64,000 nucleotides of DNA. Source: Tepidisphaera sp. Its GTDB lineage: Bacteria; Planctomycetota; Phycisphaerae; Phycisphaerales; UBA1924. This document shows, piece after piece, positions 21,220-23,662 of the stretch. Position numbers and translations under genes: made by a program. The stretch is from contig WGNV01000004.1 of the NCBI GenBank assembly GCA_016124375.1, positions 1-64,000 on the forward strand, in the 5' to 3' direction. Position 1 is the first letter of the stretch. The number at the start of each line of letters is the position of its first letter. The notes beneath the pieces were generated by a model. It was not told the origin of the DNA and did no database searches. It worked only from the letters and a program-made list of their open reading frames with translations.

Positions 21220-21403
21220 TCGGCATCCAAGCCGGGGGTCTGGCTCGAATGCAGGCTTGCAGGTCCATTTTCTTGAAGGATTCTAAATCGCAAGAGCGCC
21301 TACAGTCGGTCTAAAGCGACAGTGGGTGCCAAGCCACGTCCGTACACACTCCGAACTTTGATGTCGGCCGGGCGTATCAGATCTTGAGCCATTGGAGACG
21401 ACG

Positions 21404-22645
21404 ATGACCAGCCATCCCGAAACGATTTACCTTGATCATGCCGCCACGACGCCTTGCGACCCGCGGGTGGTGGAGGCGATGCTGCCGTATTTCACGACGA
21501 TGTTCGGGAACCCGGGCAGCCGCAACCACCGGTTTGGATGGGACAGCGAGGCGGCGGTGGACAAGGCCCGCGAGCAGGTGGCGAGGCTGCTGGGCGCGGA
21601 CGAGAAAGAGATCATTTTCACGTCCGGGGCGACGGAGAGCAACAACCTGGCGATCAAAGGGGCGGCGTACCTCTACGAGAAGGCCCCGGCGGGCTCGATG
21701 AATCGCGGGCACATCATCACCAGCATCATCGAGCACAAGGCCGTGCTGGACCCGTGCAAGCGGCTTCAAAAGGAAGGCTTTGAGGTGACGTTTCTGGAGC
21801 CGCCTCAGGATGGTGTGATCACCGCGGAGATGGTGAAGGCGGCGATGCGCGAGGACACCATCCTGGTGTCGCTGATGTGGGCGAACAACGAGATCGGCAC
21901 GATCAACGAGATTCCGGAGATCGGGGCGCTGTGCCACGAGCGGGGCGTGATCTTCCACACCGACGCCACGCAGTGGGCGGGGAAGATGCCGACGGATGTG
22001 GAGAAGGCCCAGGTGGACCTGCTGAGCATGAGCGGGCACAAGATCTACGGGCCCAAGGGCGTGGGGGCGTTGTATGTTCGCCGCCGCAAGCCCCGCGTGC
22101 GGCTGCAGGCCCTGGCCGACGGCGGCGGGCAGGAACGCGGCTTCCGCTCCGGCACGCTGAACGTGACGGGGATCGTGGGGCTGGGCAAGGCGTGCGAGAT
22201 CGCGATGGCGGAGATGGAGAAGGACGCGGCCAGATTGATCCAGTTGCGCGATCGCGTGGAGAAGACGATCACGAGCCAGCTCGACAGCTGCCAGGTAAAC
22301 GGGCACGCGACCAAGCGCCTGCCCCACATCACGAACATCTCTTTCGGCTTCGTCGAGGGCGAGGGGCTGATGATGGCGATCAAGGACATCGCCTGCTCCA
22401 GCGGCAGCGCGTGCACCAGCGCCAGCCTGGAGCCGAGCTATGTGCTGAAGGGCCTGGGAGTGGGCGATGAACTGGCCCACAGCAGCCTGCGGCTGAGCAT
22501 GGGCAAGTGGACGACGCCCGAGCAGGTGGAGTACGCGACGGCGAAGATCGTCGAGGCGGTGAAGCGCCTGCGCGAGATGAGCCCGCTGTACGACATGCAT
22601 AAGGAAGGGATTGATTTGAGCAAGGTGGAATGGGCGCACCACTAG
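21404..22645 (+). CDS. iscS: Cysteine desulfurase
   Basis: [76 protein letters not shown]. Confidence 0.95.
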
Positions 22646-23220
22646 CGAAATTGCCAAAGGGCTAAATTGCTAAATGGCTAAATTTAGACCTTCGCGTATG
22701 GGCAGTTGACAGAACTTTGGAGCGAAGATGGCACGCGGGCGGTTGAAACCTGAGTTTTTGGAGCGAGCCGAATCGTTCAGCGATCGGTGCGTGGCAGTGG
22801 CGGAGCAACTGGCTGCGGACGGGAGGTTCTTGCGAATTGTGGAGCAGTTGGCCGCGGCTGGCTCGTCGGTGGGTGCGAACCTCGCTGAGGCTGACGAAGC
22901 CATGAGCACGAAGGACTTTCGGAAGTGTTTGGCGATCGCGACGAAAGAACTGGCAGAGACGCGGTTTTGGCTGCGGCTTTGTATTCGACGGAAGTGGGTG
23001 CCCGAAGGACGCCTTTCGTCGTTGCTCGAGGAACTCACAGAGATCAAGACGATCGTCGGTTCGATTCTGAAGGGCACGCAGTGGGAGTCCACGAAGAAAC
23101 CCGCCCGAAGTTTCACGGGACGACCGATCCGAGAAACCCAATCGAATGCACGCCCGGCAATGGAATCTCGTCGCACCTCTGATTTAGCCATTTAGCAATT
23201 TGGTATTTAGCAATTTGGAG
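22646..23220. mobile_element. Putative small inverted-repeat-bounded element carrying a four-helix-bundle gene, inserted between iscS and iscU
   Basis: 22664-22683 aaattgctaaatggctaaat is the exact reverse complement of 23182-23201; the partial match extends to ~40 bp with internal 7-8-mer repetition on both sides. Confidence 0.65.
22728..23195 (+). CDS. Four-helix-bundle protein (S23 / 23S rRNA intervening-sequence protein family)
   Basis: FLERAESFSDRCVAVAEQLA..RFLRIVEQLAAAGSSVGANLAEADEAMSTKDFRKCLAIATKELAETRFWLRL: hallmark of the family. The stop codon lies inside the right inverted repeat. Confidence 0.85.
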   Translation: MARGRLKPEFLERAESFSDRCVAVAEQLAADGRFLRIVEQLAAAGSSVGANLAEADEAMSTKDFRKCLAIATKELAETRFWLRLCIRRKWVPEGRLSSLLEELTEIKTIVGSILKGTQWESTKKPARSFTGRPIRETQSNARPAMESRRTSDLAI

Positions 23221-23227
23221 ACTTCCC

Positions 23228-23662
23228 ATGGCATACGGCCCGAAGATCATTGAGCATTACGAAAAACCCCGCAACGTCGGCTCCTTCGGCACGACCGCCG
23301 AAGTCAAGACTCGCAAGGACGTCGGCGTCGGGTTGGTCGGCGCGCCCGAGTGCGGCGACGTGATGCAGCTGCAGATCCGCGTCAACCCCACCACCGGCGT
23401 CATCGAGGACGCCAAGTTCAAGACCTTCGGCTGCGGCTCGGCGATCGCGTCGTCTTCGCTGGCGACCGAGTGGCTGAAGGGCAAGACGCTGGACGAGGCT
23501 GAGTCGATCAAGAACACGCAGATCGTCGAGGAACTAAGCCTGCCCCCGGTGAAGATTCACTGCTCGGTGCTGGCGGAAGATGCGATCCACGCCGCGATCA
23601 AGGATTATCAGGAGAAGAACGGGATCGCGGCCAAGGCCGGCGAGCAGTCCGCGGCTCATTAG
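23228..23662 (+). CDS. iscU: Fe-S cluster scaffold protein IscU
   Basis: MAYGPKIIEHYEKPRNVGSF, GAPECGDVMQLQIRV, FKTFGCGSAIASSSLATEWLKGKTLDEA, PPVKIHCSVLAEDAIHAAIKDY. Confidence 0.95.
   Translation: MAYGPKIIEHYEKPRNVGSFGTTAEVKTRKDVGVGLVGAPECGDVMQLQIRVNPTTGVIEDAKFKTFGCGSAIASSSLATEWLKGKTLDEAESIKNTQIVEELSLPPVKIHCSVLAEDAIHAAIKDYQEKNGIAAKAGEQSAAH

Follow-up and report, generated by a model that had tools for sequence, protein, structure and literature searches.

An S23/IVP gene between inverted word arrays at iscS-iscU: a likely copy of a widespread family of mobile elements

The S23 protein family has been known since the 1990s. In Coxiella burnetii, the intervening sequence (IVS) of the 23S rRNA comprises 428 nt with an S23 ORF, a 28-bp terminal stem, and tandem heptamers (GACAGAT) beside the ORF on its upstream side, and is excised by RNase III; its mobility has long been suspected (PMC4990558). 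The S23 protein of Xanthomonas has been described as a homopentamer (PMC4990558). Heptamer repeats have been reported separately, among them GGGAATC, which forms 70 to 75 inverted pairs per genome in Xanthomonas (PMC4692102), and TAACTGA in the Beggiatoaceae (PMC4679880). A text search of both papers (PMC4692102 and PMC4679880) found no mention of S23.

Here, we describe an S23 gene enclosed by inverted arrays of short words. The element shares with an IVS the S23 ORF and terminal inverted repeats that pair with each other, but it does not lie inside a 23S rRNA gene; it sits between iscS and iscU. Terminal inverted repeats are also a trait of transposons, although those found here have a sequence private to each element. 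No transposase is encoded in the window element, of which S23 is the only convincing ORF.

The cassette between iscS and iscU

The cassette occupies positions 22648-23218 of the window, by which we mean the whole 64-kb stretch of DNA analyzed. Its features and the evidence for them are as follows.

21392-22645, plus strand: iscS (cysteine desulfurase), the upstream host gene (ORF; PF00266, E 5e-84)
22648-22686, plus strand: left array of 7-8-nt words, AAATTGCC AAAGGGCT AAATTGCT AAATGGCT AAATTTA (sequence; direct repeat D2, inverted repeats I1 and I2)
22664-22683, plus strand: left exact inverted-repeat arm, 20 nt (repeat search; RNA MFE pairing)
22728-23195, plus strand: S23/IVP four-helix-bundle gene, 155 aa (PF05635, TIGR02436)
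23182-23201, plus strand: right exact inverted-repeat arm, 20 nt (repeat search; sequence)
23182-23218, plus strand: right array, ATTTAGCC ATTTAGCA ATTTGGT ATTTAGCA ATTTGG (direct repeat family D1; sequence)
23228-23662, plus strand: iscU, the downstream host gene (PF01592, E 2e-50)

The TAG stop codon of iscS (22643-22645) lies directly 5' of the element, and the 3' end of the right array overlaps the GGAG that precedes iscU. The two arms, spaced 498 nt apart, are complementary at 20 of 20 positions. An exact inverted repeat of this length is expected by chance about 1.5e-7 times in 582 nt, and a search of the 64-kb window for exact inverted 16-mers 100-1200 nt apart returned this pair and only one other, a GC-rich 16-mer. 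When the element is folded as RNA, the arms pair over all 20 positions (MFE of -226.8 kcal/mol); no Rfam match was found within the window. A preliminary description of this DNA had proposed that inverted repeats built of 7-8-nt words bound an S23/IVP gene whose stop codon is supplied by the right repeat. Each of these points was confirmed: the repeats are exact over 20 nt, the outer words are real (22648-22683 on the left, 23182-23218 on the right), the gene is recognized by both profiles, and its TAG stop is provided by the ATTTAGC of the right arm.

The S23 protein of the window matches PF05635 with an E-value of 6e-18 (65.4 bits, curated cut-off 33.8) and TIGR02436 ('four helix bundle protein') with an E-value of 2e-20 (73.1 bits, cut-off 24), and it belongs to a divergent subfamily with GANLAEA where others have SNIAEG. 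Its predicted structure (pLDDT of 86) found 2rld as the best PDB match in a Foldseek search (E 4e-6, TMt 0.93) and also matched 2gsc, which points to the four-helix-bundle fold of these two structures. Both solved members of the family have five chains per PDB entry. The comparison with the orthologue of the congener G003 gave a dN of 0.17 with saturated dS, two other S23 comparisons gave dN/dS values of about 0.3, and, judged from these alignments, the protein is under purifying selection. A defence-system identity was rejected because the window protein has no match in PADLOC; it has none among the PHROG profiles either. A phage origin was rejected as well, there being no S23 match across 50,697 phage records.

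Is the gene a fixed part of the isc operon? Within the genus, S23 is present at iscS-iscU in three genomes (the window's own, G000, as well as G003 and G002, with 84% and 74% identity to the window protein, respectively), and 4 of 7 congeners (G001, G004, G005, and G006) have an empty spacer of 17-44 nt. The preliminary description had suggested looking for such empty sites, and neither of the outcomes that it regarded as fatal was found: relatives do not always carry the gene, and the repeats are not confined to this copy with no empty site. The arms in G002 use a different word (AAATGGGC / AAATGGTC) on both sides; therefore, the two ends of what seems to be an orthologous element have changed jointly. 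The iscS-iscU spacers of G011, G017, and G018 contain gene-less inverted word arrays that total 109-147 bp. Probably a common ancestor of G000, G002, and G003 already had the insertion, and at this site the element is probably no longer obviously moving. In another genome (G015, locus L056), the iscS-iscU spacer is 695 nt long and has no S23 element but another small ORF (SASRFYYACYQAAHA) that appears HEPN-like by eye.

Arrays and private words across the S23 family

We surveyed 191 PF05635 loci, 111 from 61 genomes of the order and 80 from many phyla (Bacteroidota, Acidobacteriota, Proteobacteria, Verrucomicrobiota, Patescibacteria, Chloroflexota, and others). Flanks were counted as inverted matches at a score of at least 13 in a strict local alignment scheme, with cross-paired and shuffled flanks as controls. 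Such matches bound 154 of the 191 genes (81%), compared with 2% of cross-paired flanks. The order set reached 81% (cross-paired, 2.2%; shuffled, 0.7%), and when its 81 strongly tandem flanks were examined for lags of 3 to 12, only 7 (52 flanks) and 8 (29 flanks) occurred, with none in shuffled sequences. The set from many phyla gave 80% against 2%, with periods of 7 (43 flanks), 8 (11 flanks), and 6 (1 flank), and of five copies inspected on cyanobacterial plasmids, four had the same inverted arms. As a further control, 10 of 257 ordinary spacers on contig C4 of G000 reached a score of 14, about four of which are themselves word arrays. Across the family, an element measures roughly 420-650 bp and consists of one S23/IVP gene between two inverted terminal arrays.

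The words vary widely (GGCACTAG, GTGACGGA, ATTTTCC, TCGTTCC, and GGGAATC, for example). For five recurrent loci, arm similarity within an element (median of 21-30) far exceeds that between same-side arms of different copies at the locus (6-12). The ends evolve in concert: each element has a private word, and both arms change together. The preliminary description had suggested a search for other S23 genes with ATTTAGC-type arms; the anatomy recurs at other loci, but ATTTAGC is no family signature, each element having its own word. The median array of 35 nt would correspond to five heptamers and thus match the S23 pentamer; this match can do no more than suggest a link, since the arrays were measured in steps of 7 nt.

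The genome of the window (3.1 Mb, 76% complete) contains many such arrays. A 101-nt probe from the left end of the cassette matched 21 further places, one of them the right arm, and the matches inspected were word arrays beside or between genes. Some were inverted pairs around a gene-less core of 30-50 nt, some were single, and others had a differing word on either side. Gene-less elements with unlike left and right words around a 30-50-nt core were noted at C11:121265 and C4:552557 of G000 and at L006. Over 640 kb of contig C4, the tandem arrays in spacers mostly have a period of 7 or 8; array counts are lower bounds because the strict tandem scan overlooks degenerate arrays. G000 has two more S23 genes, a second one at dcd-nrdJ that is broken by a TGA codon (L028, C8:185908-186222) and a third at accB-accC with a perfect 40-nt arm match (L077).

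The arrays appear to be linked to the presence of S23. In sampled sequence, spacer arrays of period 7 or 8 numbered 22 in 1.24 Mb from S23-carrying genomes (15 of them contributed by G000), and 0.6 Mb from S23-free genomes gave a single one, which is a stretch rich in G (p 0.017). The word family GGCAYYR occurred 349 times in 26 S23-carrying genomes of the family and 8 times in 11 S23-free ones (p 0.007). Across all 61 genomes this association had a p value of 0.056, in part because genus g34 is rich in GGCAYYR, notably G055, which has 50 array matches and lacks PF05635 genes. Arrays may persist after S23 is lost.

Host sites, target duplications, and inheritance

The left arm starts a median of 2 nt past the upstream stop codon and contains more G than C in 88% of cases. 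The downstream gene is co-oriented with S23 at 121 of 146 loci and both neighbours are at 80 of 146. Named by reading the flanking proteins, the recurrent sites are dcd-nrdJ, groES-groEL, dnaE, probably sdhA-sdhB, accB-accC, iscS-iscU, and rfb, and some are common to different phyla, such as accB-accC in Planctomycetota and Xanthomonadales. An rRNA location considered for three loci (L177, L206, and L228) was rejected; these lie in an apparent dTDP-sugar (rfb) operon, not in 23S. In CRISPR operons of Pseudanabaena and Anabaena, two S23 elements with differing words (L363 and L366) separate cas6 from cas4.

Among cyanobacterial plasmids, close pairs of occupied and empty sites demonstrate insertion. 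Plasmid C of Trichormus variabilis (L365) differs from plasmid2 of Nostoc linckia (L368) by a clean 428-bp insertion between flanks that are 98.8% identical; GTAAT stands on each side and takes in the upstream gene's TAA stop. Two Nostoc plasmids (L375 and L377), compared with the empty L379, have TTCTA on each side, again at the stop codon. The duplication is longer at a third locus (TACTAAG, 7 nt; L385 versus L389) and imperfect at a fourth (TTAGT/TTAGC; L384 versus L390), and no clear target duplication was found at the junctions of four other pairs (L364, L374, L383, and L386). Moreover, one subfamily with 78-82% identity is found at three distinct plasmid loci that have no flanks in common. 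The target duplications sought at the suggestion of the preliminary description hence exist as 5-bp repeats in cyanobacterial relatives, and none is resolvable for the window copy.

How often do these elements move? On a tree of 191 S23 proteins, built from 105 columns only, the labels for locus group strongly (22 changes, compared with a shuffled mean of 50), and well-supported branches alone require at least two or three origins for dcd-nrdJ, accB-accC, and two other sites. Vertical descent therefore prevails, the same sites having been entered more than once, and movement, judged by the clustering of the proteins by locus, is rare. The idea that the gene and its repeats form a minimal mobile unit is upheld by the empty sites, the same anatomy at other loci, and the clean plasmid insertions, with the qualification that the unit moves rarely and is mostly passed on vertically. 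It had also been put forward as a candidate undescribed element; the gene family was known from rRNA intervening sequences, and what is apparently new is the general, array-bounded form outside rRNA.

Some elements lie within a gene. S23 elements sit within a dnaE2-type gene in six genomes (L034, L035, L039, L080, L093, and L107) and within dnaE1 in two (L090 and L097); both genes have the insertion in one and the same loop, which precedes the GVFQ[IF]ES motif. In all eight, the host reading frame stays open through the entire element, with S23 in another, constant frame; the same frame is open in 3 of 47 comparable elements outside dnaE (Fisher p 1e-7, orthologous copies being non-independent). 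Empty loops of about 41 aa are present in G000 (L282), G001, G003, G005, G011, and G016, and the loop of G006 is 35 aa longer and contains word arrays that are probably the remnant of an element. In the simplest reading of these frames, the insertion would be translated through as a loop of about 150 aa; the dnaE product could also be split or processed. A methylase-like gene (L158) offers a case similar to the dnaE insertions: from L158:1714-2367 and downstream, a DNA-methylase-like gene has an S23 element together with several in-frame arrays that lack a gene and encode TDNRKLTTDN-type peptides.

Explanations and known systems

We consider it likely that the window cassette is one copy of a widespread family of S23 mobile elements that are bounded by inverted word arrays and moved by a trans-acting enzyme. 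The evidence supports viewing it as the form that the S23 'intervening sequence' takes outside rRNA, usually inherited vertically and rarely moving. No catalytic protein is encoded in the element, and none was identified in trans. How could ends so variable be recognized? We hypothesize that the S23 homopentamer, a relative of Avd, recognizes the arms by their structure (a foldback or cruciform) and 7-nt spacing rather than by sequence; under this proposal, the words would therefore be free to drift while both arms match. The trans-acting enzyme would perform the strand transfer, and foldback template switching or gene conversion could keep the arms alike. Ends that lack a fixed sequence and stay matched through concerted change would represent an uncommon principle of recognition. 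In the transcript, the arms may enclose the S23 ORF in a long stem that shields the flanking cistrons; alternatively, by analogy with rRNA intervening sequences, RNase III might cut the element from the transcript. Insertions into essential operons would be tolerated because the duplicated stop codon keeps the upstream protein intact.

Several other explanations deserve consideration. A known transposase, either a DDE enzyme with 5-bp duplications or a RAYT/Y1 enzyme, could mobilize the cassette in trans as a non-autonomous, MITE-like element with S23 as a bound accessory or as cargo. Target duplications of 5 bp are typical of several DDE families, and Y1_Tnp (RAYT-like) is commoner among genomes of the order with S23 (36 of 40) than among those without it (11 of 21; p 0.003; 61 genomes). 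We nevertheless find this explanation doubtful, as known transposases, to our knowledge, do not tolerate end sequences that differ from element to element, and IS200/IS605-type Y1 transposition leaves no target duplication. Y1_Tnp is, moreover, missing from four S23-carrying genomes (G007, G023, G027, and G041), for which reason a Y1/RAYT transposase was rejected as an obligate partner. It is unlikely that the arrays themselves are the moving or expanding unit, spreading like STRR by slippage and homologous recombination with the S23 gene as a passenger between two inverted arrays. Arrays do stand alone, or with unlike words around a short core, in G000, and they remain in the S23-free G055; however, in a census of the S23 family alone, four-fifths of S23 genes are bounded by them; the two arms of each element share a private word, the whole unit inserted cleanly with a 5-bp duplication, and S23-free genomes within the same family hold few arrays.

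The purifying selection on S23, the repeated occupation of the same essential operons in co-orientation, and the persistence of the element at a locus across genera would all suit a host gene that regulates the expression of iscS-iscU (or groE, acc, dcd-nrdJ, and dnaE), the arrays acting as RNA stems in that regulation. We regard such a role as improbable in view of the patchy presence within one genus, the unrelated host operons and words, the target duplications, and the insertion within dnaE at two paralogues. Movement by reverse transcription, with S23 as an Avd-like partner of the reverse transcriptase, is very improbable. It could draw on the match of the cyanobacterial S23 protein of L365 to the Avd profile phrog_3206 (E 1.5e-9) and on a weak fold match of the S23 model to Avd in the complex of diversity-generating retroelements (DGRs), but PF00078 is absent from G000 (76% complete) and most S23-carrying genomes, and a reverse transcriptase acting in trans was rejected since the domain is not associated with S23 (11 of 40 genomes with S23, 5 of 21 without). 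A broader claim can be made only tentatively, and we lean against it at present: S23/IVP elements might be a distinct class of mobile elements in which a four-helix-bundle pentamer rather than a recognizable transposase drives insertion at stop codons, the ends are heptamer arrays that match each other but have no fixed sequence, and the elements are the autonomous source of the heptamer repeats dispersed in bacterial genomes (STRR, GGGAATC, and others) and of rRNA intervening sequences.

The system is real and general; within the reach of our search, it is undescribed as a mobile one. No paper making a general connection between S23 genes and heptamer arrays came to light; most subscription papers were beyond the search, and priority is not certain. 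REP/REPIN sequences and their RAYT partner are alike in being dispersed short inverted repeats with one small partner gene and mostly vertical inheritance, but S23 is a four-helix bundle and not an HUH/Y1 enzyme, its elements have private words, and they make 5-bp duplications. The palindromic elements of Rickettsia are likewise selfish insertions that keep the host frame open, as in dnaE here, but they carry no gene, whereas S23 elements carry one in another frame. Avd of DGRs is a related protein with a related fold, but no reverse transcriptase was found in G000, and no template or variable repeat was seen.

Among the known systems closest to the window element are the 23S rRNA intervening sequences, which likewise have one S23 ORF and terminal inverted repeats that give rise to a long RNA stem. 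The elements described here differ in lying in protein operons or dnaE, in having arrays at both ends, and in showing empty sites and target duplications. STRR of cyanobacteria, GGGAATC of Xanthomonas, and TAACTGA of Beggiatoaceae are also intergenic tandem arrays of 7-nt units; in contrast to these published repeats, S23 is here the gene inside paired arrays, and an S23 element of Xanthomonas arboricola at accB-accC (L195) has GGGAATC arms. The S23 family and the heptamer repeats reported separately from cyanobacteria, Xanthomonas, and Beggiatoaceae look like two halves of a single mobile system. If this is true, very many simple repeats and genes annotated as 'four helix bundle protein' are open to re-annotation, and the long-standing question of the mobility of rRNA intervening sequences becomes testable.
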